NCBI GenBank assembly: GCA_028819475.1
Contig: JAPPLJ010000019.1
Location: 62,001-126,000, forward strand
Direction: 5' to 3'
Length of the DNA stretch: 64,000 nt
Source of the DNA: Rhodospirillaceae bacterium
GTDB taxonomy: Bacteria > Pseudomonadota > Alphaproteobacteria > Bin65
Each line of letters begins with the position of its first letter. Position 1 is the first letter of the stretch. Below are positions 40,347 through 62,496 of the stretch, one piece after another. The notes beneath the pieces are model-generated. The model had not been told where the DNA came from. It searched no databases and saw only the letters and a list, made by a program, of their open reading frames with translations. The position numbers and the translations under genes are program-made.

Positions 40347-40395
40347 GGTTGTCAACTAAAATATATAATGATATATCTTTTGTTATGCGACAACC
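40347..40395. promoter_or_regulatory. Nested inverted repeats at the GntR start, likely operator
   Basis: Outer arms GGTTGTC (40347-40353) and GACAACC (40389-40395) bracket an inner palindrome ATATAT-AATG-ATATAT (40361-40376). The site overlaps the translation start region of the GntR gene and lies in the divergent gap with the catabolic operon. GntR/UTRA proteins bind such palindromes as dimers and usually repress their own and the divergent promoter. Which of the two repeats is bound is not known. Confidence 0.6.
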
Positions 40396-44011: not shown

Positions 44012-44812
44012 TCATCGCCACCGCAGGAAGTAGCGTTCTGCCGAAGCCGTGGCCCAGAATACGAGGAGGCCAAGCATCATGCTCACGATGATCGTTGCCC
44101 ATAAGAGTTCGAGCTCTCTGAGGGAAGCGGTGTCAAGAATGAGATAACCGAGACCATGGTTGCCCGTCAGCCACTCGGACAACATGGCCCCGAGGACGGC
44201 GATCGGGGCGGCCGTGCGCAAGCCTGAAAAGATATACGGAAAGGCGAAAGGAAAGCGGAGGAGGTAAAGCATCTGCCATCGGCTCGCGCCGTAGAGGTGC
44301 ATGAGTTCGACATGGGCCTGGCGGGCTCCGAGAAACCCTCTGAGGCTGGTCACCAGAATGGGAAAGAAGGACGCGATAACGACTACGGTCACCCCGGTCC
44401 AGAAACCGCGACCGACGATCAGCGTGATGATCGGCGCGATGGCCACGACAGGAACGCTGCGCATCGAAATGGCGAAGGGGAAGGTCGCCTGGGCCGCGGC
44501 CGGCGAAACGACGAACACGCCAGCTGTGCCCACCGCCAATACCGTGCTGATCGCAAGGCCGCAGACTCCCTCTCCCAGCGTGAACAGCAGGTGGCCGAAG
44601 ATCATGGAACGATTGAGTATCAGCGATTCGATCGCTGCCTGGGGCAACGGCATCAGATACGGTTTGATGTCCTGCAGAACCACGAAACCGTGCCAGAAGG
44701 ACAGGAACAACAGCGCAAAGATCGCAAAGGATACGAAGGGCCGTGCAGCGGCGTTCGACCAGACGGACCGCCACGCATCGGTAAACCAGAGCCTGTCTCT
44801 TCCAACGACCAC
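44012..44812 (-). CDS. ABC transporter permease (SsuC/TauC type), first of two
   Basis: A 266-residue BPD-type permease with six hydrophobic segments. The EAA-type loop is HVELMHLYGASRWQMLYLLRFPFAFPYIFSGLRTAAPIAVLGAMLSEWL, and GLGYLILDTAS follows. It belongs to the nitrate/sulfonate/pyrimidine-precursor class of importers. Last gene of a leftward four-gene run: binding protein, ATPase, permease, permease. A 48-base gap separates it from the second permease; two different permeases probably form a heterodimer. Confidence 0.9.
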   Translation of the reverse strand: MVVGRDRLWFTDAWRSVWSNAAARPFVSFAIFALLFLSFWHGFVVLQDIKPYLMPLPQAAIESLILNRSMIFGHLLFTLGEGVCGLAISTVLAVGTAGVFVVSPAAAQATFPFAISMRSVPVVAIAPIITLIVGRGFWTGVTVVVIASFFPILVTSLRGFLGARQAHVELMHLYGASRWQMLYLLRFPFAFPYIFSGLRTAAPIAVLGAMLSEWLTGNHGLGYLILDTASLRELELLWATIIVSMMLGLLVFWATASAERYFLRWR

Positions 44813-44860
44813 TGAGCTATGCTCCCGACGTCCGGTTCGCTCTTCTTTCCCGCCTGAACC

Positions 44861-45667
44861 CTAATCAGCTATCATCTCGGCAGGCCGCTCCCAGTGGACG
44901 ACCCATTTCTCGACGAGGCCGACGAGCGAGTACGCCAGTATGGCGCTGACGATCGAGACGATGAGCGTGAGCCACACCAGCGCCACGTTGAACGAGAAAA
45001 GGGCGTAGGCCATCATAAGGCCGAGACCTTTCTCCGCACCCACCCATTCCGAAATGATGGCGCCCAGGAGCGCGCTGGCGGCTGAGATCTTAAGGCCGGC
45101 GAAAAGGTAGGGCAGCGCGCTCGGCAGGGCCAGAAGCCGGAACTCCTGCAGCTTGGAGGCCGAGAGGCAGTGAAAGAGTTCCGCAGCCTGCCGGTCGACG
45201 GCGCGGAGACCCTGGATCGCGCCGACCAGGACGGGAAAGAAGCCGGCAATCGCGGCGATGATGATCCGGACCGTCGAGCCGACACCGAACCACATGACCA
45301 GGATCGGCGCCGACGCAATGAGGGGAATGCTGTATATGACGACGGCGAAGTTGTAGACGATTCCTTCCGAGCGTTTGACGAGAACCGCAAGCATCGCGAG
45401 CGCCATCGCCGTGGTGCACGCGAAGAAATAGCCGACGACCGTCGCCCACAGGGTCGGCTTGAGATGGAACCACAGATCGTCGGCGTGGGCGACAAAAGTC
45501 GCGTAGATCTCGCTTGGCGCGGCGATGGAAATGGGGAACACGCCCAAGGCCCGCATCAGCTCGACGAAGCCGAGAAATACGACGAAGACGCCGCTGGCAA
45601 AGGCAAAGCGAAGCAGCGAACGTACGGAACTTCGCTTTCCCGCCAGTGTCCCATGAAGCGCGCGCAT
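44861..45667 (-). CDS. ABC transporter permease (SsuC/TauC type), second of two
   Basis: A 268-residue inner-membrane permease. AELFHCLSASKLQEFRLLALPSALPYLFAGLKISAASALLGAIISEWVGAEKGLGLMM is the ATPase-docking EAA region and following helix. Six hydrophobic segments are seen. It is only distantly similar to its neighbour at 44.0 kb, consistent with a heterodimeric pore as in ThiX/RutG-independent pyrimidine importers. It starts 17 bases after the ATPase stop. Confidence 0.9.
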   Translation of the reverse strand: MRALHGTLAGKRSSVRSLLRFAFASGVFVVFLGFVELMRALGVFPISIAAPSEIYATFVAHADDLWFHLKPTLWATVVGYFFACTTAMALAMLAVLVKRSEGIVYNFAVVIYSIPLIASAPILVMWFGVGSTVRIIIAAIAGFFPVLVGAIQGLRAVDRQAAELFHCLSASKLQEFRLLALPSALPYLFAGLKISAASALLGAIISEWVGAEKGLGLMMAYALFSFNVALVWLTLIVSIVSAILAYSLVGLVEKWVVHWERPAEMIAD

Positions 45668-45684
45668 GCCCCGAAGCCGTTCGT

Positions 45685-46482
45685 CTAGCCTTGCGGCAAG
45701 CCGGATTCGGACGGCGACTCGTCGGAGTAGAGCGCGTCGCGCACGAAGTTGACCGTCTCGAAAAAGGGTTGCGAGCGCATCATGTCGAGCGTTCTTGGGC
45801 GGGTCAGCCGCACGTGTCTTTCCGCCTTGATCTGCCCGGGTCCCGCGGTCAGCACGAACACCCGGTCCGCCATGAAAACGGCTTCGGCGATGCTGTGCGT
45901 CACCAGAAGGGCCGAGGTCTGGCTCTCCGCCCAGATGCGCAGAAGCTCCAGATTCATTCGCTGGCGCGTAATCTCGTCGAGCGCCCCGAAAGGTTCGTCG
46001 AGCAGCAAAACCTGGGGATTGAGAACCAGGGCCCGTGCGATCGCAACGCGCTGCTGCATGCCGCCGGAAAGCTGGGAGGGCATCGCCTTCTCGAAACCCG
46101 TAAGGCCGACCAGATCGACGAGTTGCTGCGGACTGCGTTCCAGCTGCCGGTTGCTGTCGCGCAGGATGATCAGCGGCAGCTTTATGTTGTCGATCACGTT
46201 GCGCCAGGGGAGCAGGGTGGCGTCCTGGAAAACGAAACCGATGAGCTGATTCAGCCGGATCTCGGCCGGCGGCCGGTCGCCGATCGAAATGGAACCGTGG
46301 GTCGGCTGAATGATGTCCGCAACGACCCGCAGGAGGGTCGATTTTCCGCAGCCGCTCGGACCGATGATCGCGCCGAACTCTCCTGGCGCCAGCGACAGGC
46401 TCACATCCTTGAGCGCGGTGAGCGTCTCTTGGCCGAGGCGAAATTCGACGGTCACATTACTGAGCTTGAGATGCTCCGCCAT
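45685..46482 (-). CDS. ABC transporter ATP-binding protein (SsuB/TauB type)
   Basis: A 265-residue ATPase: Walker A GPSGCGKS, Q-loop VFQDATLLPWRNV, signature LSGGMQQR, Walker B VLLLDEPFGALDE and switch His in LLVTHSIAEA. LLPW after the Q-loop glutamine is characteristic of nitrate/sulfonate/taurine-type ATPases. Its ATG at 46482 is preceded by a 159-base gap to the binding-protein gene, which contains a perfect hairpin. Confidence 0.93.
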   Translation of the reverse strand: MAEHLKLSNVTVEFRLGQETLTALKDVSLSLAPGEFGAIIGPSGCGKSTLLRVVADIIQPTHGSISIGDRPPAEIRLNQLIGFVFQDATLLPWRNVIDNIKLPLIILRDSNRQLERSPQQLVDLVGLTGFEKAMPSQLSGGMQQRVAIARALVLNPQVLLLDEPFGALDEITRQRMNLELLRIWAESQTSALLVTHSIAEAVFMADRVFVLTAGPGQIKAERHVRLTRPRTLDMMRSQPFFETVNFVRDALYSDESPSESGLPQG

Positions 46483-46554
46483 TGTCAGGGCAATGCCACC
46501 AGCCAGACCGTCTCGCGCGAGCGATTCCGACGTCTTCGCTGACCGCGAACGGCG

Positions 46555-46582
46555 TCACGAACCCCCGGTCGAGGGTTCGTGA
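46555..46582 (-). promoter_or_regulatory. Intra-operon hairpin between binding-protein and ATPase genes
   Basis: TCACGAACCC (46555-46564) and GGGTTCGTGA (46573-46582) form a perfect 10-bp stem with an 8-nt loop. It lies 60 bases downstream of the binding-protein stop in the transcription direction. Like the hairpin at 31907-31943, it would allow more binding protein than membrane subunits. There is no T-tract, so full termination is unlikely. Confidence 0.7.
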
Positions 46583-46641
46583 TACCGTGAGCGGCATGAC
46601 CCGGCAAGCGTGGGCGTCCGGCACGCCCGCGGGTCGGCGCC

Positions 46642-47721
46642 TCACATCCCGAGCGCTTCCTTGACGAGGGACTGGTCGACGAGGTCGGCGACGGGGATCT
46701 TTTTCTTGATCAGGCCGGCGCTCGCGCCCAGTTCCATTCCCTGCTCGAAAATGTCGGTGCCGATCCAGAGGGGCCCCTTGGTCTTCGCGTCGCCGCCAAG
46801 GATGTAGGGCCCGTAGGTCTTGGACTCGACTTTCTGCTGAGCCAGGTTGAGGCCCCGCTGCCCGTATTTTTCGACCGTGATCTTGGCCGTCGCCTCAGGG
46901 TTCTCCGCGAACCACTTCCAGCCCTGGATCTCCGCTTTCAGCCACCGCACGATCAGGTCCCGTTTCTCCTTCAGGGTTTCCTCCAGAGCGAAGAAGACCA
47001 TCGCGTAGGTGACGTCGCCGAGGTCGTTCAGGGAGACGATATGAAGGTCTACCCCCCGCATCCTCAGCATCACGCCCTGGTTGGTCGCCCAGCCGAAGTA
47101 GGCGTCGACCTGTCCGGTCGGAAGAATGCCGGGATCGGTTCCCGTGGGCACGAACTTGACGCTGTTGACGTCGATGCCGCCCGCCTTGAGAAGGGCCCTC
47201 ATCGTCGGCCGCCTCTGCGAGGGGATGGCGATCGTCTTGCCGGCCATGTCCTGCAGGTTGCGGACCGGCTTCGATTTGAGGCTCATCATCGAGTAGGGAT
47301 TCTGCTGAAGTGCGGCGGCAAAGGCCTTGATCGGAATCCCCTTGCTCCTCGCGAGAATGATGTTGGTCGAATCCCGGTCCCCAAGCATCGAGTTCTTGGA
47401 TGCGACCAGGTTGATCGAATCGATGCCCGGACCGCCCGATATGATCTCGGCCTCGATGCCCTGCTTCTTGAAATAGCCGTTCTCCTGAGCCACGAAGTGA
47501 CCGCCGAACTGGACGCTCTTGACCCAGTTCAGGACGATCGAAACCTTCTCGAGCTTGCCGCTCTGGCCCAAAGCCGCAGGTGCGAACGCCGAAAGACCGA
47601 CCGACGCCGCAGCCGCGCCGCCGGCAAGCCCGACGCCCGCCCGCAGGGCATCGCGCCGCGAAACGCCTTCGATTGCCGGGGTCCCCCGGGAAAGGGCACG
47701 AAGTTTTTTCTCCTGATTCAT
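46642..47721 (-). CDS. ABC transporter substrate-binding protein (NMT1/THI5-SsuA family), Tat-exported
   Basis: A 359-residue periplasmic protein. The N-terminus has a twin-arginine signal: SRRDALRAGVGLAGGAAAASVGLSAFAP, cleaved near the GQSGK at about residue 55. The mature domain starts VSIVLNWVKSVQFGGHFVAQENGYFKKQGIEAEIISGG, the NMT1/THI5-like pattern shared with hydroxymethylpyrimidine and sulfonate binders. ATG 47721 follows GGGAGGA at good spacing. The family prefers small aromatic or heterocyclic, nitrogen-rich ligands, which fits the ring-opening hydrolases next to it. Divergent from the AtzH-like gene; an operator lies in the 318-base gap. Confidence 0.9.
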   Translation of the reverse strand: MNQEKKLRALSRGTPAIEGVSRRDALRAGVGLAGGAAAASVGLSAFAPAALGQSGKLEKVSIVLNWVKSVQFGGHFVAQENGYFKKQGIEAEIISGGPGIDSINLVASKNSMLGDRDSTNIILARSKGIPIKAFAAALQQNPYSMMSLKSKPVRNLQDMAGKTIAIPSQRRPTMRALLKAGGIDVNSVKFVPTGTDPGILPTGQVDAYFGWATNQGVMLRMRGVDLHIVSLNDLGDVTYAMVFFALEETLKEKRDLIVRWLKAEIQGWKWFAENPEATAKITVEKYGQRGLNLAQQKVESKTYGPYILGGDAKTKGPLWIGTDIFEQGMELGASAGLIKKKIPVADLVDQSLVKEALGM

Positions 47722-47961
47722 CGCTAGTCCTCCCATAGGCCCGTAAGGTCGAGAGCCTGTTGATTATCGGCATGGAAAAATGTGCCCCGTTTTGGGGCCG
47801 CGAACCGCACAGAGCAAGGCGTCAGCCACGTCTCTCGTCCGCCCATCGGTCGCGCTCGCCTGCAGAGATTTCGGCCCGGCACCGGGTTCCGGCGCATAGG
47901 GCCTGAGGTTCAAATCGGGTCCACGACGTATGAGCACCAGCAGAGTTCAATTGGCCCGAAA

Positions 47962-47978
47962 AGTCAAGTAACTTGACT
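47962..47978. promoter_or_regulatory. 17-bp perfect palindrome, presumed XRE-cupin operator 1
   Basis: AGTCAAGTAACTTGACT is a perfect palindrome 62 bases before the start of the AtzH-like gene. The same core occurs at 50902-50916 (13 of 15 bases) and 53267-53281 (14 of 15), each in a divergent promoter region within this cluster. The rest of the 47722-48039 gap holds nothing else recognised. Confidence 0.75.
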
Positions 47979-48039
47979 GATGGGAACGATTTTGGCATGC
48001 TCGGCGCACTTGTTGAGATTCTGGCTTCGGGAGAAGAAT

Positions 48040-48429
48040 GTGCAGATCAACATTCCCGGAGTGTTGGCCGAGCTGACGGAAGCGTTTCGCGGCTACGAAG
48101 ACGCGTTGTCGTCCAATAAACCGGAGAGGCTCAACGGCTATTTCTGGAAATCGCCGCATGCGGTCCGCTACGGAGTCGCGGAAAATCTCTACGGCCACGA
48201 CGAGATTGCCGCGTATCGTCTGCGGAGGGCACAGGTCGGCGGCGCACCGGACCGAGAGGTGATCCGCGAGGTCATCACAAGCTACGGGCGGGATTTCGGC
48301 ACGACCTGCATCGATTACGTGCGCACCGAAACCGGCCTTGCGGGCCGGCAGTCGCAAACCTGGGCGCGGATGCCCGAAGGCTGGCGAATCGTTGCCGCAC
48401 ACGTCTCGCTGCTGCAGGAGGCCGACTGA
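48040..48429 (+). CDS. AtzH/HpxZ-like protein (DUF3225, SnoaL-like fold)
   Basis: A 129-residue protein. VQINIPGVLAELTEAFRGYEDALSSN, KSPHAVRYGVAENLYGHDEIAAYR and QTWARMPEGWRIVAAHVSLL match the family of HpxZ (oxalurate utilisation) and AtzH, the 1,3-dicarboxyurea amidohydrolase of the cyanuric acid pathway. GTG 48040 is taken as start because it begins at the family N-terminus and GGGAGAAG precedes it; an ATG at 47980 would lie beside the operator and add 20 unconserved residues. It is followed by the ring-opening amidohydrolase gene 37 bases later, an order recalling cyanuric acid operons. Function by homology and context. Confidence 0.88.
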   Translation: MQINIPGVLAELTEAFRGYEDALSSNKPERLNGYFWKSPHAVRYGVAENLYGHDEIAAYRLRRAQVGGAPDREVIREVITSYGRDFGTTCIDYVRTETGLAGRQSQTWARMPEGWRIVAAHVSLLQEAD

Positions 48430-48466
48430 GTTCGGCGCCTCGATGCCGAGTGCCGGGAGTCTAGGA

Positions 48467-49579
48467 ATGGGCCGGCTTTACACCGCATACAAGTTCCCGA
48501 TGTCCGCTCCGGACGACGTCACCGGTCTGGAGGCGCTGCTGGATGACGGCACGGTCGATGCCGAGGAGGTAGTCTGTTTAATCGGCAAGACCGAGGGCAA
48601 CGGCCGGGTCAACGACTATTCGCGGCCGTTGGCCCACCGGTGCCTGCGCGATCTCCTTTCCCGGCGCATCGGGCGGTCCGCCGAAGAAACCGACAGGCGC
48701 GTCGCGTTCGTCATGTCGGGCGGATGCGAGGGAATAATTTCGCCCCACGCCACGGTCTTCGTCAGCAGGCAAACCACGTCGAGCGGCGCGCGCGGGCAGA
48801 AAAGACTCGCTTTCGCGATGGCAAACACGCGGGAGCTTCTGCCGGAAGAGATCGGCACGATCGTGCAGGTCGAGCTCGTTGCGGAAGCCGTGAAGGCGGC
48901 TCTCGAGAGCGCGGAAATCGCCGGCACGGAGGACGTTCACTACGTGCAGGTAAAGTGCCCCCTCCTGACGACGGAGCGGATCAATGCCGCCAAAGCGCGC
49001 GGATCCATGACCGTGACCGAGGACACGCTGAGATCCATGGGCTATTCGAACGGCGCCTCCGGTCTCGGTATCGCCGTCGGCCTCGGCGAGGTCGCCGCCG
49101 TCGATCCCGCAGACATCTGCACCAACCCGGACATATTCACGACTCGGGGCGGCTCGTCGTCGGGAATCGAACTGATGAATTGCCAGGTGTTCGTTGTCGG
49201 AAACTCGGTTCGTTCGGAGAGTCCGTACGTTGCCGCCCACTGCCGCCTCGACGACCTAATCGATGCCGACGGGGTCCGCCAGGCGCTCAGGAGAGCGGGA
49301 CTGCAGGTCGAAGGTTCGGTCGATGAATCCGCCCGCCCGCGGGTGCTCAACGTGTTCGCGAAGGGCCAGGTGCCGCTCGATGGCCTGCTGCGGGGCTGGC
49401 GCACCACATTGTTGACGGATTCCGATCTCAACACGCGCCCGGCCCGCGCGGTCCTCGGCGCCGTGGTGGCGTCCGTTGTCGGCGATCCGGCAATCTACGC
49501 CTCGGCCGGCTGGGGATACCACCAGGGGCCGACCGGCGGCGGCGTGGCGGCCGCCATCGTCCGGGCCGCGGACGACTGA
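48467..49579 (+). CDS. Ring-opening amidohydrolase (cyanuric acid hydrolase/barbiturase family)
   Basis: A 370-residue member of the small family whose known members hydrolyse cyanuric acid (AtzD, TrzD) or barbituric acid. The threefold repeat is visible with a Lys-Ser pair in each unit: Lys41 (GKTEGNG) with Ser84 (VMSGGCEGI), Lys163 (QVKCPLL) with a serine of GGSSSGIEL (230-232), and Lys299 (FAKGQ) with Ser346 (YASAGWGYHQGPTGGG). ATG 48467 follows GGGAG and gives the usual length of about 365. It is translated after the AtzH-like gene. AtzD makes 1-carboxybiuret; barbiturase makes ureidomalonate. Which substrate is used cannot be told from sequence alone. Confidence 0.9.
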   Translation: MGRLYTAYKFPMSAPDDVTGLEALLDDGTVDAEEVVCLIGKTEGNGRVNDYSRPLAHRCLRDLLSRRIGRSAEETDRRVAFVMSGGCEGIISPHATVFVSRQTTSSGARGQKRLAFAMANTRELLPEEIGTIVQVELVAEAVKAALESAEIAGTEDVHYVQVKCPLLTTERINAAKARGSMTVTEDTLRSMGYSNGASGLGIAVGLGEVAAVDPADICTNPDIFTTRGGSSSGIELMNCQVFVVGNSVRSESPYVAAHCRLDDLIDADGVRQALRRAGLQVEGSVDESARPRVLNVFAKGQVPLDGLLRGWRTTLLTDSDLNTRPARAVLGAVVASVVGDPAIYASAGWGYHQGPTGGGVAAAIVRAADD

Positions 49580-49587
49580 TACGGCCC

Positions 49588-50808
49588 TTATTTCTCAGAG
49601 TTCCTAACGGCCAGAAACCGCGCGAGTTCGACCGCCCGCTCGAGCGTTTCGAAGTCCCGGCCGCGCGGCGCAACGAGCGACAGGCCGATCGGGCAGTCCT
49701 CGACCTGCCCGCCGGGCAAGGTGACTTGCGGCAGGCCGCCGAGAGTGGCGACACAGGTCAGCGGCAGGATACGCTGGCGGATCGGCTCCAGCGCTTCGGC
49801 GTCCAGGCGCGGCGGAAGCGCAATGCAGGGCGTCGTCGGCCAGAGCAGGACCCTGTCGTCCCCCAGGATGTCGTCGAGATAGGCCCGTGCTTCCCGGCAT
49901 GCCGAGAGCGCGGTTTCATATTGCGCCGCGGTAACCGTACTGGCCCAGGCGAACCTCTCCCCGATGGCCGTCCCGAAGCCGGGTTGCGCCTCGCGAATCC
50001 ATTCTCCGTGGGCTTGCCAGGCTTCGAAAGCCTGAAGGATGCGCATCGTGGCCGACCATGCGCTGAGATCGCGCTCCCATACGGCCGTCTGGACCGGCGT
50101 ATGCTCCGCGATACGACCGATCGCGCGCTCAAGGGCGGTGCGCACCGGCTGATCGCAGAGGTCGAATGCCGGTTCGGCGACGAGGAAGGTTACCGGAGCC
50201 GAACCGGCTGTCTCCGGGGTCAGCAGAACCCGGCCGACATCGCGGAGCAATTCGGGTGAATCCGCGAGCCATCCCACGGTGTCGAAGCTCGGGGCAAGGG
50301 GAACATAACCCTTCGCAGACAGCCGTCCGTGCGTCGGGCGGATGCCATACAGTCCGCAATAGCTCGCCGGCAGGCGCACCGACGCGGCGGTGTCGGTGCC
50401 GATCGCAAAGTCGACGACACCTCCGGCAACGGCGGACGCCGAACCGCTCGAAGAGCCGCCGGGGATTCGGTTCGCGGCGCGCGGATTGACCGGTGTCCCG
50501 AAATGCACGTTCTCACCGTTGACGCTGTAGGCGAGCTCGTCGGTGTGTGTCTTCCCCACAAGGGTCGCGCCGGCGTCAAGCAGGGTGCGAATGACGGGCG
50601 CCGTCCGGACCGCGGGCGGATGGTTTCGTTCCCAGTCGGGATTGCCGCAACCGGTCACGTACCCCTGAACGTCGAAGAGATCCTTGGCCGCGAAGCGAAA
50701 TCCCGAAAGCGGGCCGGAGGACCGGCCGGGCACAGCTGACCCGAATATCGTGCGAAAAGCGCCGAGCGGATCCTGGGCAGGCGTGTCGGCAGTTCCTGCG
50801 GCGGGCAC
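49588..50808 (-). CDS. Amidase signature family enzyme with altered oxyanion motif
   Basis: A 406-residue Ser-cisSer-Lys hydrolase of the AMI1/indoleacetamide-amidase-like branch. Lys42 (FAAKDLFD), cis-Ser119 (GGSSSGSA) and nucleophile Ser143 are present. The usual DTGGSVR motif reads DTAASVR: both glycines before the nucleophile are Ala141 and Ala142, so oxyanion geometry may differ. Next to the AtzD- and AtzH-like genes it could play the AtzE role (1-carboxybiuret hydrolase) or a ureidomalonase-like one, but no AtzG partner is seen. It converges with the ring-opening gene and diverges from the XRE-cupin gene across an operator. Confidence 0.88.
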   Translation of the reverse strand: MPAAGTADTPAQDPLGAFRTIFGSAVPGRSSGPLSGFRFAAKDLFDVQGYVTGCGNPDWERNHPPAVRTAPVIRTLLDAGATLVGKTHTDELAYSVNGENVHFGTPVNPRAANRIPGGSSSGSASAVAGGVVDFAIGTDTAASVRLPASYCGLYGIRPTHGRLSAKGYVPLAPSFDTVGWLADSPELLRDVGRVLLTPETAGSAPVTFLVAEPAFDLCDQPVRTALERAIGRIAEHTPVQTAVWERDLSAWSATMRILQAFEAWQAHGEWIREAQPGFGTAIGERFAWASTVTAAQYETALSACREARAYLDDILGDDRVLLWPTTPCIALPPRLDAEALEPIRQRILPLTCVATLGGLPQVTLPGGQVEDCPIGLSLVAPRGRDFETLERAVELARFLAVRNSEK

Positions 50809-50901
50809 AATTCTCTTCCGATTCCAACGATGCGTCGATCGGCAGCGCGGTTGATTCGTCGGCAGTTCGACCGCGGGAAAATCGAGGGAACGGGTTAAGT
50901 C

Positions 50902-50916
50902 GTCAAGTATATTGAC
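50902..50916. promoter_or_regulatory. Presumed XRE-cupin operator 2
   Basis: GTCAAGTATATTGAC has arms GTCAA/TTGAC and matches operator 1 at 13 of 15 bases. It lies between the amidase start (50808, leftward) and the XRE-cupin start (50964, rightward), so the regulator probably controls its own gene and the amidase. Confidence 0.7.
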
Positions 50917-50963
50917 TTCTCGACATGCGCCTGTAGTTGAAGCCGGTCAAAACGGGCGACTGA

Positions 50964-51611
50964 ATGATGAGTGCCAGACCAGCGACTAAACGGAAAATCT
51001 CGCGCAGGGACTTGCGTTCGACTCGCGCGAACCCGGTACCGCCGACCGAAATCAGGATCGGCATCCGCCTCAAACACGCAAGGCTGACGAAGGGTCTTGG
51101 CCTGCGCCAGCTCGCGGATGAGGTCGGATGCTCGGAAAGCTTTATCTCGAAGATCGAGAACGACAAGGTGCGCCCGTCCTTCTCGACGCTTCACCGGATC
51201 GTCGCCGCGCTGGAGATGAACGTCGCGCTGCTGTTCGCGGAGGAGACACCGGAGTCCGGCCGGGTATCCATAATGCGACCGAGCACGCGCCCCGTGATCC
51301 GGGTCGATCCGGTTTGGCGGGGCGAAGGAATCACGCTCGAGCGACTGATTCCGGGCGCCGCCGGAACCTTGCTTCAGGCCAACATTCATCACATCGACCC
51401 GGGCGCGAACACGGACGGTCCCATCGAGCACGACGGCGAGGAATTCGGATTCGTGCTGGAAGGGACGCTGCAGCTGGTGGTCGAGGATATCTCCTACGTC
51501 ATCCGCGCCGGCGAATCGTTCTCCTTCTCCTCTCATCTGCCACACGGTTACAGCAATCCCGACAAGACCATCGCCAAGGTCCTGTGGGTCAACACGCCGC
51601 CGACCTTCTGA
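50964..51611 (+). CDS. XRE-family regulator with C-terminal cupin domain
   Basis: A 215-residue regulator. After 30 basic residues the helix-turn-helix reads LKHARLTKGLGLRQLADEVGCSESFISKIENDKVRPSFSTLHRIVAAL. Residues 140-210 form a cupin (HIDPGANTDGPIEHDGEEFGFVLEGTLQLVVEDISYVIRAGESFSFSSHLPHGY), which senses a ligand or metal. It ends VLWVNTPPTF, the same ten residues as the regulator at 61.9 kb. PuuR-like proteins of this layout repress catabolic genes until an intermediate binds. An operator-like palindrome lies 48 bases before its ATG and two more lie at neighbouring promoters. Confidence 0.9.
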   Translation: MMSARPATKRKISRRDLRSTRANPVPPTEIRIGIRLKHARLTKGLGLRQLADEVGCSESFISKIENDKVRPSFSTLHRIVAALEMNVALLFAEETPESGRVSIMRPSTRPVIRVDPVWRGEGITLERLIPGAAGTLLQANIHHIDPGANTDGPIEHDGEEFGFVLEGTLQLVVEDISYVIRAGESFSFSSHLPHGYSNPDKTIAKVLWVNTPPTF

Positions 51612-51626
51612 CCTCCGCTTCCGCCG

Positions 51627-53117
51627 TCACGAAGGCAGCACCCCCGTTCCGAAGTCCGCCAAACGGTCGGCCCGGCTGCCGAAGTCCTGCCCGGTTCGTT
51701 TTCTGAGGCGTCGCACCATCGCCGCCGCCGACTCGTTTGCCGCCGAAGCCAGGCGGCGCGAATCCGCTTCTGCGAGCTGTCCGCCGCTCACGAGAACACG
51801 GCCGGCCACGATGGTCGTGTCGACCTGGCCCGTGTCACCGACGAACAGGATGCAGGCCAGGGGGTCGTGCAGGCCGCCGGCGTAACAGAGCTGCCCGAGA
51901 TCGATGAGCACGACGTCAGCCGCACAGCCTAAGGCCAGGCGGCCGATGTCGTCCCGGCCCAGAATGCGGGCCGCCTCGCGCGTCGCCATCCAGAGCACGT
52001 CATGCGCCGTCATCCAGTCCTCGGGACCGTACTCCTCATGGGTGCCCATCAAACGGTGGACCAGAGTCGCCAGGCGCAATTCCGTAAGCATGCTGCCGCC
52101 GTCGTTGCTGGCCGCCCCGTCGACGCCGATGCCGACAGGCACGCCCGCCGCCCGCATTTCCGGCACCGGACCGGCGGGCACACCCAGGCGCATGTTCTGG
52201 CTCGGGCAATGGGCCATGCCCGCGCCCGTGCCGGCGAGCACGGCGATGTCCTCGGCCGTGTGCATCGTACAGTGAATCAGGCAGGTCTTCGGCTTGAGCC
52301 AGCCGATGCGCTCCAGGTGGGCGGTGGGCCGGCAACCGTGCATCTCCGTCGAGAGCGCCACGTCGTCGGGCCTGGGGGTCACGTGCAGGTGCCGGTCGCA
52401 GTCCGCCTCGTCGGCCAGACGGCCCAGCCGATCCATCAGCTCCGGATGAAAATACGCGATCATCGTCGGCCCGATCCCGATGCGCACCATCGAAAGGCGC
52501 GCCGGGTCGTGGTAGGCGGCCAAGCCACGCTCGCAGGCCTTCAGGATGGCGTCCGGTTCTTCGGTGGTTGCGATTGCCGCGCCGCCGCGCATGGCGGAGA
52601 TGCGGTCGTCGATGGCCCCCTCGAGGCGCGGCACGCAACCGCGAATGGCGTGCTGGCGCAACCCCATCTCCCGCACGGCTCCGATTTCGACGTCCAGGAG
52701 GTCGTCCCGGCCGCCGGGATAGAAGTAGGCGTGATCGACGCTCGTGGTGACGCCCGACAGGAGGAGTTGTGCGGCGGTGAGGCGCGCCGCAGCGTCCATG
52801 GCTTCGCCGTTGAGTTCCTGCCACAGCGGATACATGCAGCCGAGCCAGTCCAGAGAACGGCCCTTCTGGCCGGCCGGCACGACCCGGGTCAGCGACTGGC
52901 TGTAGTGATGATGCATATTGACGAAGCCCGGCAGGACGAGATGGTTGCGGGCATCGATTTCCCGCGCCGCCGGCGCGCCCACGTACGGCTCCGGCCCGAG
53001 TCCGGCGACGACACCATTCTCGATGGCAACCCAGGCGTTGGTGAGCGGCGCCTCGTTCGGTGTCTCGCAGGGATAAAGGCACGCCGCGTGGCGAATGAGG
53101 AGAGTCGGTCGATTCAT
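51627..53117 (-). CDS. Amidohydrolase family protein, 8-oxoguanine/isocytosine deaminase-like
   Basis: A 496-residue zinc deaminase. LPGFVNMHHHYSQSLTRVVPAGQKGRSLDWLGCMYPLW is very close to the 8-oxoguanine deaminase signature (HHH...LTR...YPLW). Further ligands: HLHVTPRPDD, CLIHCTMHT and the metal Asp in GIGVDGAASNDG. The C-terminal 40 residues are Arg/Ala-rich. Family members deaminate amino-purines, isocytosine or hydroxytriazines; in this cluster it may feed the ring-opening enzyme by making a fully oxygenated ring such as barbiturate or cyanurate (inference). ATG 53117 gives the normal N-terminus; upstream frame is unconserved. Divergent from the M20 gene across operator 3. Confidence 0.9.
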   Translation of the reverse strand: MNRPTLLIRHAACLYPCETPNEAPLTNAWVAIENGVVAGLGPEPYVGAPAAREIDARNHLVLPGFVNMHHHYSQSLTRVVPAGQKGRSLDWLGCMYPLWQELNGEAMDAAARLTAAQLLLSGVTTSVDHAYFYPGGRDDLLDVEIGAVREMGLRQHAIRGCVPRLEGAIDDRISAMRGGAAIATTEEPDAILKACERGLAAYHDPARLSMVRIGIGPTMIAYFHPELMDRLGRLADEADCDRHLHVTPRPDDVALSTEMHGCRPTAHLERIGWLKPKTCLIHCTMHTAEDIAVLAGTGAGMAHCPSQNMRLGVPAGPVPEMRAAGVPVGIGVDGAASNDGGSMLTELRLATLVHRLMGTHEEYGPEDWMTAHDVLWMATREAARILGRDDIGRLALGCAADVVLIDLGQLCYAGGLHDPLACILFVGDTGQVDTTIVAGRVLVSGGQLAEADSRRLASAANESAAAMVRRLRKRTGQDFGSRADRLADFGTGVLPS

Positions 53118-53266
53118 TTCGTCATCCGCCCAAACAATTGTTCGGCCGCCCCGATACTGCCAAAGACTCCCGTTGCACATCGTCAACAGGTTCGGTTCGG
53201 ACCGCGAGGAGTCGCGGGCATGCGACCGATGGTTCTTGCGCTCGCATGCGCGTACTATGCCTCAAA

Positions 53267-53281
53267 ATCAAGTAACTTGAC
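53267..53281. promoter_or_regulatory. Presumed XRE-cupin operator 3
   Basis: ATCAAGTAACTTGAC matches operator 1 at 14 of 15 bases and lies 30 bases before the M20 hydrolase start, in the divergent gap with the deaminase gene. One site could control both directions. Confidence 0.72.
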
Positions 53282-53310
53282 AAAGCGCGCAGGAATCATT
53301 CCAAAGACGT

Positions 53311-54597
53311 ATGCAAGAGAGATCCGTTTGCTCCCAGTCGCCGATCCCGGCGGCCGTCGACGGCCGCCGTCTGTGGGAGCGGCACCTTGCCATGGCGAAG
53401 ATCGGCCGGACAGAGCGGGGCGGTGTCAATCGGCAGGCGCTGACGCCTGAGGACGCGGAAGGCCGGAACCTCCTTCTTTCCTGGGCGGCGCAACGAAACT
53501 ACGCAGCGTCGATCGATCCTATCGGGAACCTGTTCATCCGTCGTCCGGGACTGGACGCCCGGGCGGTCCCCGTCATGACCGGATCGCATCTCGATTCCCA
53601 GCCGACAGGCGGAAACTTCGACGGAGTCTTCGGCGTCCTGGCCGGACTGGAGGTGCTCGAAACTCTCGACGATAGTGGCCTGACGACGCTCCGTCCGATC
53701 GAACTTGTGGTCTGGATGAACGAGGAAGGCGCCCGATTCCCGCCGACGACCATGGGCTCCGCCGTATGTGCGGGAGAGTTGCCGCTGGAGACGGCGCTGG
53801 CAACCGTCGACAAGGAAGGTATCAGCGTTGGCGACGCCCTCGCCGAGCATCTACGCCGGATCCCGCCGCTGACCGAGCGGGAACTGGGCGAAGACGCATT
53901 CTCGTATGTCGAGGCGCACATAGAACAAGGCCCGGTGCTCGAGGAAAAGGGCTGCGCGATCGGCATCGTCACCGGGATCCAGGGCCTGAACCTGTTCGAG
54001 GTCGAGGTGCAAGGCGACGAGGCCCACGCGGGAACGACTCCGCTCGGAAACCGCCGGGATGCTTTCGTTGCGGCCTCTGCGCTTGCTCAGACGTTGCGGG
54101 AAATCGTCCACGATCCCGCGGACATTTTGCGCTTCACGATCGGCCGGTTCGATGTTTCGCCCGGCTCGCCCAACACAGTTCCCGGGCGGGTGTTTTTCAC
54201 GATCGATCTCCGGCATCCCGACACCGCAGTCCTGGCGCGCACTGGGCAACGCTTGCTCGACGCCTGTCGCCGGCAGGACGGCCCGTGTTCCGCGGATGCG
54301 CGCCTGTTGTTCGAATCGCGCCCCGTGACGTTCAACGACGACATCCTCGACGTCCTGCGCGAAGCCGCAAACGACCTGGGCGTCCCGCATATCGAGATGA
54401 TTTCGGGAGCGACTCACGATGCCAAGTTCATGGTTGGACAATGCCCGACCGCCATGATCTTTGTTCCCTGCAAAGACGGTATCAGCCACAACGAAGCCGA
54501 AAGCGCGCGTCCCGACGACCTGACCGCCGGAGCCCAGTTGCTGTGCGCCACGATCCACCGCCTCGCCATGGCCGAGTCTGCGCTCGCTCGGAATTGA
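53311..54597 (+). CDS. M20 Zn-dependent N-carbamoyl-L-amino acid hydrolase / allantoate amidohydrolase-like
   Basis: A 428-residue peptidase-M20-fold enzyme. Dinuclear metal ligands and active-site groups are all present: GSHLDSQPTGGNFDGVFGV, WMNEEGARF, HIEQGPVLE, GDEAHAGTTPLGNRRDAF (dimerisation lid), SGATHDAKFM and GISHNEAE. Known members remove the carbamoyl group from N-carbamoyl-amino acids, ureidopropionate, ureidoglycine or allantoate. In this cluster a ureido acid from ring opening is the likely substrate, releasing ammonia and carbon dioxide. ATG 53311 starts 30 bases after operator 3. Next gene follows after 125 bases. Confidence 0.92.
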   Translation: MQERSVCSQSPIPAAVDGRRLWERHLAMAKIGRTERGGVNRQALTPEDAEGRNLLLSWAAQRNYAASIDPIGNLFIRRPGLDARAVPVMTGSHLDSQPTGGNFDGVFGVLAGLEVLETLDDSGLTTLRPIELVVWMNEEGARFPPTTMGSAVCAGELPLETALATVDKEGISVGDALAEHLRRIPPLTERELGEDAFSYVEAHIEQGPVLEEKGCAIGIVTGIQGLNLFEVEVQGDEAHAGTTPLGNRRDAFVAASALAQTLREIVHDPADILRFTIGRFDVSPGSPNTVPGRVFFTIDLRHPDTAVLARTGQRLLDACRRQDGPCSADARLLFESRPVTFNDDILDVLREAANDLGVPHIEMISGATHDAKFMVGQCPTAMIFVPCKDGISHNEAESARPDDLTAGAQLLCATIHRLAMAESALARN

Positions 54598-54722: not shown

Positions 54723-55727
54723 GTGAACTTTGACAGGAGCATTCCCGGCCTGTCCCAACTACCGCGGGTCAGCCTCGGTTTCTTTCCCACACCCATTCAG
54801 GCTCTGCCCCGCCTGAGCCGTTTGGTCGGACGTGAAATCCTCATCAAGCGGGACGATCTGTCCGGACTGGCGATGGGCGGAAACAAGGCGCGCAAGCTCC
54901 GGTTTCTGGGCGGGGAGGCCATCGCTCAGGCGTGCGATACGCTGGTCGCGACGGGCTTTCTCCAGTCGAACAACGTCGTCCAGACCGCGGCGGCGGCGGC
55001 GAGGTCCGGGCTGAAGTGCATTCTCGCCCTCGAAGCGTACCGGCCGGGCGAGATTCGGGGAAACGTTCTTCTTTCGAACCTCCTGGGTGCGGAAATCCGG
55101 TATGCGGGCAATCGCCCGATTCGAGAGGTCATCGACGAAATCATCGCAGACGTCTCGGCCCGGGGCGGCAAGGCCTATGCCTTGCCTCCCGGAGGGTCCA
55201 CCGGGATCGGTGTCGCCGGCTTCGTGGAAGCGGCCCTCGAGGCCCGGGCACAGTTGGGCGAAATGGAGAAGGGTGTCGAGGCGATCGTCCTTCCGACCGG
55301 AACCGGAGGCACCCAGGCCGGCTTGCTGCTCGGGTCGCAAGTCCTCGATTGGCCGATCGCAATCGTCGGCATCAGTACCGGCAAATCCGAAGAGGAGCTG
55401 CACGTCGCCATACCGGCGATGGCGGCCGAATGCGCACGCGTACTGGCGGTCGACTGCCGGATCGGGTCCCGCGACGTCACTGTTTCCGAGGAATTTATCG
55501 GCGATGGTTACGCCCGGCCGGGACGAGCCGATTTCGAGGCGATCCGCACCGTTGCCCGAGAGGAAGGGATTCTGACGGACCCGGTTTACACGGGCCGGGC
55601 GATGCACGGAATGATCGAACTTCTCGAACAGGGTCGCATTTCCGGATCCGGACCGATCCTCTTCTGGCATACCGGCGGGTTGCCGGCGGTATTCTCCTTC
55701 GATGAGCCCGGCGACGCCGCGGATTGA
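54723..55727 (+). CDS. D-cysteine desulfhydrase / ACC deaminase family PLP enzyme
   Basis: A 334-residue fold type II PLP enzyme. The cofactor lysine is Lys55 in MGGNKARKLRFLG. SNNVVQTAAAAA follows, and TGTGGTQAGLLLG binds the phosphate. Members act on D-cysteine, 1-aminocyclopropane-1-carboxylate or other D-amino acids, releasing ammonia and a keto acid. It lies just after the M20 carbamoylase gene, so it may deaminate the amino acid set free, perhaps D-configured or beta-substituted. GTG 54723 is preceded by GGGGAGCAAC. Reaction specificity is not decided by the sequence. Confidence 0.88.
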   Translation: MNFDRSIPGLSQLPRVSLGFFPTPIQALPRLSRLVGREILIKRDDLSGLAMGGNKARKLRFLGGEAIAQACDTLVATGFLQSNNVVQTAAAAARSGLKCILALEAYRPGEIRGNVLLSNLLGAEIRYAGNRPIREVIDEIIADVSARGGKAYALPPGGSTGIGVAGFVEAALEARAQLGEMEKGVEAIVLPTGTGGTQAGLLLGSQVLDWPIAIVGISTGKSEEELHVAIPAMAAECARVLAVDCRIGSRDVTVSEEFIGDGYARPGRADFEAIRTVAREEGILTDPVYTGRAMHGMIELLEQGRISGSGPILFWHTGGLPAVFSFDEPGDAAD

Positions 55728-59592: not shown

Positions 59593-61170
59593 ATGGCCAC
59601 ACCGAATGAGAAACTCGCTGCGTCGCTGGCGCAGTTCCGGAAGCTCCAGGGCCGAGGGCAACGGGTCCTTCGCTCCGGCGAGCTGACGCGTGTTCACCGC
59701 GAGCGGCTGGTCAGGAACGGTTTTTTGCGCGAGGTGATGAAGGGCTGGCTGATCTCCTGGAGCCCGGATGCCGATCCGGGCGATACGACGCCTTGGTCCG
59801 CGTCCTTCCGGGAGTTCTGCGCGGCCTATTGTACCGCCCGGTTCGGGCCGGACTGGCACCTTTCCCCGGAACAGTCCCTGCTGCTTCACGCGGAAAACAC
59901 CGTCATGCCGCAGCAGGTCATCGTCTATGCGCCCCGGGGCACCAACAACGCCGTCGAACTGCTGTTCGGCACGTCATTGTACGATCTCAGGCAAAGGGAC
60001 ATGCCGCCGGATGCCGACCTGACGGACCGGGACGGGCTGCGGCTGTTCGTGCCCGAGGCGGCACTGGTGCGCGTGCCGGCGGCGTTCTTCGTCCGGCACC
60101 CGGTCGAGGCGCAGGTCGTACTCTCAGGCGTCCGCGAGGCGGCCGACCTGCTCGGGCGGCTGCTCGATGGCGGCCGTTCGGTGGTTGCCGGGCGGCTGGC
60201 CGGCGCATTCCGCCGCATCGGCAGGGGCGAGGTGGCCGACGAGATTCTGGGCGTCATGAAACGCGCCGGCTACGACGTCCGCGAAGCCGATCCGTTCGAG
60301 CCGAAACGGGCCTTTGGTGCGCTGAGCCGGGCGCAGGCGCCGATTGTCGGCCGCCTGCAATCGCTGTGGGAGGCGATGCGGGAGCCTGTGATCGCGGCAT
60401 TTCCCGAAGCGCCCGGCCTGCCCGATGACCCCGAAGCCTATATGTCCTTCGTTGACGTTATCTATCGGAACGATGCCTATCACTCGCTGTCGATCGAGGG
60501 TTACCGCGTTACGCCGGAGCTGATTGACCGGGTGCGCGGGGGCAACTGGGACCCGGACAATTGCGACGCCGACCGGCAGGGCCGGGATGCGCTGGCAGCG
60601 CGCGGTTACTGGCAGGCGTTCCGGCTCGTGCGGGCGGCGGTGGGCGAGATCGTCGGCGGCGGTGAAGCCGGCGCCCTGGTCCGCAAGGCCCACCGCAACT
60701 GGTATCGCGAACTGTTTCAGCCTTGCGTCGCCGCCGGCCTGATCGCGGCTTCAGCTTTGGCGGGTTATCGCAACGATGCCGTGTTCCGGCGGGGATCGCG
60801 GCATGTACCGCCGCGCCGGGAGGCGGTGCGCGATGCCATGCCGGCCCTGTTCGATCTGCTGGAAGCCGAATCCGAACCTTCCGTTCGCGCCGTACTCGGG
60901 CACTGGCTGTTCGGCTATGTCCATCCCTACCCGGACGGCAACGGGCGCATGGCGCGGCTTGTCATGAACGCGATGCTGGCATCCGGCGGCTATCCGTGGA
61001 CCGTCATCCGGGTCGGGGATCGTGATGCCTACCTGGCGGCGCTTGAAAGCGCCAGCATCGATCAGGATATCCGGCCGTTCGCACAGTTTGTGGCGGACCG
61101 GGTTGCTTGGTCGCCGGGTCGGGCTGAGATGGCCTCGTATAGTGCGGAGTTTCGGGATCGGGACAGGTAG
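59593..61170 (+). CDS. Fic family protein (AMP-transferase), self-inhibited class II
   Basis: A 525-residue protein. The Fic core motif HPYPDGNGRMAR starts at His444 and is intact, with the invariant His and the NGR anchor for ATP phosphates. An inhibitory-helix motif SLSIEG (Ser298 to Gly303, with Glu302) precedes the core, which makes it a class II Fic that keeps itself inactive until relieved. The first 250 residues begin with a helix-turn-helix-like stretch (RSGELTRVHRERLVRNGFLREVMKGWL), as in AbiEi-type or transcriptional-regulator fusions. Fic enzymes attach AMP to target proteins such as gyrase. No separate antitoxin gene is adjacent. ATG 59593 fits. Confidence 0.9.
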   Translation: MATPNEKLAASLAQFRKLQGRGQRVLRSGELTRVHRERLVRNGFLREVMKGWLISWSPDADPGDTTPWSASFREFCAAYCTARFGPDWHLSPEQSLLLHAENTVMPQQVIVYAPRGTNNAVELLFGTSLYDLRQRDMPPDADLTDRDGLRLFVPEAALVRVPAAFFVRHPVEAQVVLSGVREAADLLGRLLDGGRSVVAGRLAGAFRRIGRGEVADEILGVMKRAGYDVREADPFEPKRAFGALSRAQAPIVGRLQSLWEAMREPVIAAFPEAPGLPDDPEAYMSFVDVIYRNDAYHSLSIEGYRVTPELIDRVRGGNWDPDNCDADRQGRDALAARGYWQAFRLVRAAVGEIVGGGEAGALVRKAHRNWYRELFQPCVAAGLIAASALAGYRNDAVFRRGSRHVPPRREAVRDAMPALFDLLEAESEPSVRAVLGHWLFGYVHPYPDGNGRMARLVMNAMLASGGYPWTVIRVGDRDAYLAALESASIDQDIRPFAQFVADRVAWSPGRAEMASYSAEFRDRDR

Positions 61171-61908: not shown

Positions 61909-62496
61909 ATGAATGGTGATCTAGGCCAGGATGACGACAAGAGCCTCAGGCTCGGCAGACAGATACGTCACTGGCGCCTGGTGAAGGGCCTCACCCTGAG
62001 AGACATGGCAAAGCTCGTCGGGTGCTCGGAGAGCCTGTTGTCGAAAATCGAGAACGACCGGGCGACGCCCTCCTTGAGCACATTGCACAAGATCGCGGTC
62101 GCGCTAGGCTTGAACATCAGCGACATATTCGGGTCCGGAGAAAGCGAAGTCGTCACACGGGCGAATGAGAGGAATGTGCTTCTCGTCGACGGCGATGAGT
62201 CCGACGGGGACCGGATGCGCCTGGAACAGCTTGTGCCAGCGAAAAAGGGCCGGTTGCTTCAGGCCGACATGTACATCATTCCCCCGGGTGGCGGAAGCAA
62301 CGGAGAGATTCAGCATTCCGGAGAGGAGTTCGGTGTCGTAATGGAAGGGTCGCTTTTCCTTACCATCGAGAACACGTCCTATTTTCTGGAAGCAGGCGAC
62401 TCATTCGTCTTTCGTTCCGAGCTGGCACATTCATTTGCCAACAACGGAAGCACGGTCGCTCGTGTGCTCTGGGTGAACACGCCTCCCACCTTTTAG
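61909..62496 (+). CDS. XRE-family regulator with C-terminal cupin domain, second paralogue
   Basis: A 195-residue regulator with helix-turn-helix LVKGLTLRDMAKLVGCSESLLSKIENDRATPSLSTLHKIAVAL and a cupin (IIPPGGGSNGEIQHSGEEFGVVMEGSLFLTIENTSYFLEAGDSFVFRSELAHSF). It ends VLWVNTPPTF, identical to the end of the protein at 51.6 kb, but the N-terminal 25 residues differ and are shorter. It converges with the amino-acid-type ABC genes and is probably their regulator or that of genes beyond the window. A GGAGAACGCTGA site precedes ATG 61909. Confidence 0.9.
   Translation: MNGDLGQDDDKSLRLGRQIRHWRLVKGLTLRDMAKLVGCSESLLSKIENDRATPSLSTLHKIAVALGLNISDIFGSGESEVVTRANERNVLLVDGDESDGDRMRLEQLVPAKKGRLLQADMYIIPPGGGSNGEIQHSGEEFGVVMEGSLFLTIENTSYFLEAGDSFVFRSELAHSFANNGSTVARVLWVNTPPTF

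Follow-up and report, generated by a model that had tools for sequence, protein, structure and literature searches.

Genes at the Locus

The window analysed here, a stretch of 64,000 nucleotides, contains a group of predicted hydrolase genes around a gene for an XRE-cupin regulator (XRE1, 50964-51611, forward strand). XRE1 has the expected layout of an N-terminal XRE helix-turn-helix and a C-terminal cupin, with HTH_31 (45.6 bits), HTH_3 (37.3 bits), and Cupin_2 (62.2 bits) all above their cut-offs. Its best NCBIfam match is PuuR, the putrescine utilisation repressor, which shares this domain layout; the assignment was rejected, as the score of 97.1 bits is below the equivalog cut-off of 211 bits. 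Unlike the case of PuuR, no putrescine genes are found in the cluster. His156, Glu160, and His194 are invariant in the regulator alignment and could hold a metal.

To the left of XRE1, an ABC importer consisting of two permeases, an ATPase, and an NMT1-type binding protein is encoded on the reverse strand (44012-47736), followed on the forward strand by genes for an AtzH-like protein (48040-48429) and an AtzD/TrzD-type ring-opening amidohydrolase (48467-49579). The GTG at 48040 was taken as the start of the former, since a protein beginning there matches AtzH of Pseudomonas sp. ADP from its first residue onward. It matches PF11533 with 159 bits and the HpxZ model above cut-off, and the catalytic Tyr and Arg of AtzH (Tyr22 and Arg46; PMC6219798), 24 residues apart, are both retained, at aligned positions 19 and 43. 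In Pseudomonas sp. ADP, AtzH probably converts 1,3-dicarboxyurea to allophanate (PMC6219798). The AtzD-like protein scores 421 bits against the 360-bit NCBIfam cut-off for cyanuric acid amidohydrolase, and its nearest solved structures are enzymes of that type, with barbiturase lower; by this model it is a predicted cyanuric acid amidohydrolase.

An amidase matching the PRK08310 model (49588-50808, reverse strand) adjoins XRE1 on the left. It was rejected as AtzE, with 208-210 bits against AtzE cut-offs of 426-461. AtzE is thus not found beside AtzD and AtzH, and the full AtzDGEHF set is not assembled at this locus. To the right of XRE1 are an amidohydrolase nearest to the 8-oxoguanine deaminase model, although below its cut-off (51627-53117, reverse strand; the deaminase below), an M20 hydrolase of the hydantoinase/carbamoylase family (53311-54597, forward strand), and a PLP-dependent enzyme (54723-55727, forward strand) that is probably cotranscribed with the M20 gene, judging by the spacing.

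The cyanuric acid operon atzDGEHF is controlled by the LysR-type regulator AtzR. In this operon of Pseudomonas sp. ADP, the AtzH-like and AtzD-like genes are adjacent, as they are here (PMC6219798), but the regulator of the present cluster is an XRE-cupin protein, the adjoining amidase falls short of the AtzE models, and neither AtzG nor AtzF is an immediate neighbour.

Three Palindromes in Divergent Gaps

Three palindromes, built on the odd palindrome TCAAGT-A-ACTTGA as a shared core, lie in the divergent gaps of this cluster. Site 1, AGTCAAGTAACTTGACT (47962-47978), has perfect 8-bp arms and ends 61 bases before the GTG at 48040, between the importer and the AtzH-AtzD genes. Site 2, GTCAAGTATATTGAC (50902-50916), has a right arm with two mismatches and ends 47 bases before the ATG at 50964, between the amidase and XRE1; its form of the core is TCAAGTATATTGA, ahead of the XRE-cupin gene. 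Site 3, ATCAAGTAACTTGAC (53267-53281), has perfect 6-bp arms and ends 29 bases before the ATG at 53311, between the deaminase and the M20 gene. The sequence-only reading of this DNA had reported these palindromes, and the letters, their coordinates, and the divergent gaps were all confirmed.

A promoter-like sequence directed towards the deaminase (53254-53283, reverse strand) overlaps site 3, one such match being expected by chance. A perfect small palindrome, GGAATCATTCC (53291-53301), also lies after site 3, ahead of the start codon of the M20 gene.

A lax search of the 64 kb, allowing up to three mismatches, gave six strand matches against 2.9 expected, and 7 of 100 shuffled sequences reached six. 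This count alone is unconvincing, the search being too lax for judging significance. The decision against chance comes from exact matches, counted in pattern scans of the whole genome (4,481,830 bases, or 4.48 Mb, in 72 contigs). The core TCAAGTAACTTGA has two exact copies in the genome, sites 1 and 3, and the shorter TCAAGTNACTTGA likewise occurs exactly at sites 1 and 3 only; TCAAGTAWMTTGA is found exactly at the three sites and nowhere else. The looser TCAAGNNNCTTGA matches three further places, two within genes and one on contig C70.

We also scored the window with a matrix trained on 21 sites, all of them outside this genome. The three top matches are the three palindromes, with scores of 28.8 (site 1), 27.4 (site 3), and 13.8 (site 2), the next being 7.4. 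In 30 simulated windows, the best score averaged 9.3 with a maximum of 14.7. Site 2 is therefore weak: what distinguishes it is its place in the 155-bp gap before the regulator and not its score in 64 kb.

The match on contig C70 (12188-12200; L038:9189), with a score of 26.9, is the sole strong one elsewhere in the genome. It is preceded by a low-GC, membrane-protein-like open reading frame, sits where two convergent genes face each other with their 3′ ends, and has a run of T after it. It was rejected as a promoter site on account of the convergent gap and the T-run, and looks like a terminator stem instead. The one-mismatch matches elsewhere in the genome were not accepted as regulon members either, as each of them falls within an open reading frame, across a stop codon, or into a convergent gap. 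Neither the matrix in the window nor the pattern scans of the whole genome gave a fourth promoter site, so the claim that the window holds no fourth copy stands, and exact copies of the motif are confined to this cluster rather than frequent outside promoters.

The Motif Follows the Regulator in Other Genomes

Searches for the regulator covered its family, class, and phylum as well as two further orders. Ten relatives from the family have neither AtzD nor an orthologue of the regulator, G006 possessing the paralogue only (see below); footprinting within the genus was therefore ruled out. A regulator scan of a set of named genomes returned distant relatives only.

From the wider search, 24 loci of about 20 kb were picked by homology to the regulator alone. 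Eleven of the 24 have one exact copy of TCAAGTNACTTGA each, and 16 of the 24 contain it with at most one mismatch, leaving about a third without a site at that level. As a control, each of the other 179 permutations of the six-letter half-site gave at most one exact site in the same loci. Regulators with and without a site did not form separate branches. Among 82 genomes of one order, the regulator was found in seven at the threshold used and the exact motif in 11, with both in six (Fisher p about 9e-6, an optimistic value as the genomes are related). A seventh motif-bearing genome, G401, encodes a 45%-identical regulator directly beside its site.

In a held-out test of the matrix, eight of nine newly fetched regulator loci had a site scoring at least 22.4 close to the regulator. 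By comparison, none of 19 loci fetched for an AtzD homologue, all of them lacking the regulator, had a site of at least 20, the best score being 17.8 (p about 3e-6, again optimistic since related genomes are not independent). The motif therefore belongs to the regulator and not to the enzyme, and the loci represent several families and at least two classes.

Exact sites without such a regulator nearby were found in several genomes (L103-L107). In two further loci (L108:9942 and L109:9871), whose genomes also possess the regulator, TCCGGATCAAGTCACTTGACCCGGA forms a longer inverted repeat around the motif before a metK-like gene. Being embedded in this repeat, which has the form TCCGG...CCGGA, these palindromes were set aside; the element is probably unrelated.

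In five regulator loci (L091, L094, L172, L173, and L177), the gap adjoining the regulator contains tandem palindromes whose centres are exactly 20 bp apart. This spacing corresponds to about two helical turns and suggests that two dimers may bind cooperatively there. The sites in the window are single, unlike these tandem ones.

Candidate Target Genes

Of the 34 regulator loci, 14 include an M20 gene in the sequence fetched, against 2 of the 30 control loci (p about 0.001). On this comparison, the M20 hydrolase is the best-conserved predicted target. In three genomes of one family (L171, L174, and L175), the regulator and an M20 gene are transcribed divergently with a site in between; the M20 gene is followed by importer genes for an ATPase and a permease in all three and for a binding protein in L171 and L175. 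On the far side of the regulator, these loci have a second site, ahead of genes for a ThuA-like protein and a nitrilase. In L096 and L098, ABC importer and M20 genes lie upstream of the regulator and have a site before them. These ingredients recur, in another order, in the window.

Conservation of the sites upstream of the same genes in relatives, which the sequence-only reading had proposed as a check, was thus borne out in part: the site is kept with the regulator and, in L171, L174, and L175, with a gene of the M20 type, while the link to AtzH-AtzD is seen only here. Among the loci fetched, AtzD was not found in regulator loci elsewhere, nor the regulator in AtzD loci elsewhere. Since AtzD and the regulator orthologue are both absent from the ten family relatives, their combination looks lineage-specific or acquired.

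The leftward genes are less certain. The amidase and the deaminase are possible targets of sites 2 and 3, respectively. Control of the importer by site 1 would be the least certain, as the importer start lies about 225 bases from the site.

Comparison with Characterised XRE-Cupin Regulators

Those XRE-cupin proteins of P. aeruginosa whose regulons are known act as repressors, chiefly of adjacent genes, and bind palindromes as dimers; each has one or two targets, with one exception (PMC7901475). ErfA, PsdR, PauR, PA0535, and others of this set have the same two-domain layout as XRE1 (PMC7901475). The arrangement is also shared: palindromes lie beside the regulator's own gene and the targets are few, mostly neighbouring, and metabolic, as predicted here for XRE1 with site 2 and for its relatives with the predicted intergenic sites beside their genes. 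The target pathway of the XRE1 cluster differs from theirs, however, and whereas the three consensus sites determined in P. aeruginosa are quite different from one another (PMC7901475), the XRE1 lineage has one site over many families.

DbuR of P. putida is a repressor whose footprint covers the -10 element (PMC12724383). It resembles the present system in being an XRE-cupin protein whose gene diverges from a catabolic operon that includes a transporter (PMC12724383), but its palindrome AATTCTCATATATTAGAATT is unrelated to TCAAGTNACTTGA. A comparative-genomics catalogue groups palindromes upstream of XRE regulators, a position shared by the present motif, into 223 motif clusters (PMC12565409). 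A full-text literature search with the motif letters, which did not extend to the supplementary motif table of PMC12565409, returned no paper on a bacterial regulator. The operator is thus apparently undescribed, although it may already be listed in that table.

Proposed Function of XRE1 and Alternatives

The proposal that the palindromes mark an XRE-cupin regulon is supported, as the sites track the relatives of this regulator in many bacteria. In our interpretation, the three palindromes are very probably operators of XRE1, which most likely acts as a repressor released by a ligand. A dimer of XRE1 would place one helix-turn-helix domain on each of two TCAAG half-sites, with three bases between them (TCAAG-N3-CTTGA), and so occupy three promoters, those of atzH-atzD, the M20 gene, and XRE1 itself; the promoters of the amidase and the deaminase, which diverge from these, would probably be covered too. 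Binding of a pathway metabolite by the cupin domain would make XRE1 let go, and the genes for ring opening and C-N hydrolysis would then be expressed together. We infer direct binding by XRE1 from the tracking described above, and repression by promoter occlusion with release on a cupin ligand is the most likely mode because characterised XRE-cupin proteins act in this way. Four observations speak against this interpretation: site 2, which would be autoregulatory, is the weakest of the three; about a third of the regulator loci have no site at up to one mismatch; AtzH-AtzD does not accompany the regulator elsewhere; and several genomes have the orphan exact sites described above.

XRE1 had been described as the only regulator inside the region of the three sites. 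This holds between 47962 and 53281, but a second XRE-cupin gene, XRE2 (61909-62496, forward strand), is present further along the window. The two proteins are 50% identical and their recognition helices almost the same, with SESFISKIEN in XRE1 and SESLLSKIEN in XRE2. The Leu form of the latter is the common one among motif-linked regulators, which makes XRE2 a possible second reader: it might mainly, or also, bind the sites, in which case the cluster would integrate two signals. We consider this unlikely, since XRE1 is the regulator encoded between the sites, with one of them before its own gene, while no motif adjoins XRE2 in the window by the matrix, nor is one found near its 91%-identical orthologue in the genus relative G006. 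That orthologue adjoins an amino-acid-type ABC importer and a ureohydrolase-like gene.

Phe at one position of the recognition helix (XRE1, L090, and L093) goes with CTTGAC arms, and Leu mostly with CTTGAA. A recognition code on this basis was not retained, the independent cases being few and some Leu regulators also having a CTTGAC arm. At 59593-61170 of the window, a further open reading frame encodes the Fic-type motif HPYPDGNGR.

A further alternative keeps XRE1 as the binding protein but lets it activate the rightward genes. The sites are 29-61 bases before start codons, and NceR, an XRE-family regulator, is reported to activate ompA (PMC10470515). Against this, both DbuR of P. putida and the P. 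aeruginosa XRE-cupin proteins whose regulons are known are repressors, and we regard activation by XRE1 as improbable. It is more improbable still that another regulator, such as the GntR-type protein encoded 7 kb upstream at 40349 or a global factor, owns the palindromes and XRE1 is a mere neighbour: similar palindromes do occur without a regulator nearby (the metK-linked and orphan sites above), but the sites accompany the XRE-cupin gene in many families with differing other neighbours, permuted half-sites are nearly absent from the same loci, and AtzD loci picked regardless of the regulator have no strong sites.

Implications

With XRE1 as a ligand-released repressor, the system is a local metabolic switch of a known type, of which it provides a new example. 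We tentatively suggest, as a possibility somewhat short of even, that TCAAG-N3-CTTGA is the common operator code of a widespread XRE-cupin lineage, found in several proteobacterial families, whose neighbouring pathways and presumably also ligands differ; in this genome the lineage would have captured the AtzH-AtzD module, and XRE1 and XRE2 could each read the promoters of the other. This poses the question of how paralogues with near-identical recognition helices avoid cross-talk. If XRE1 acts as proposed, the AtzH-AtzD ring-opening pathway would gain a new class of sensor, and the prediction that an XRE-cupin sensor switches an AtzD-type pathway would help to identify its natural substrate. 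For an unstudied branch of the XRE-cupin regulators, the motif offers a concrete candidate operator together with a rule for finding targets in other genomes.
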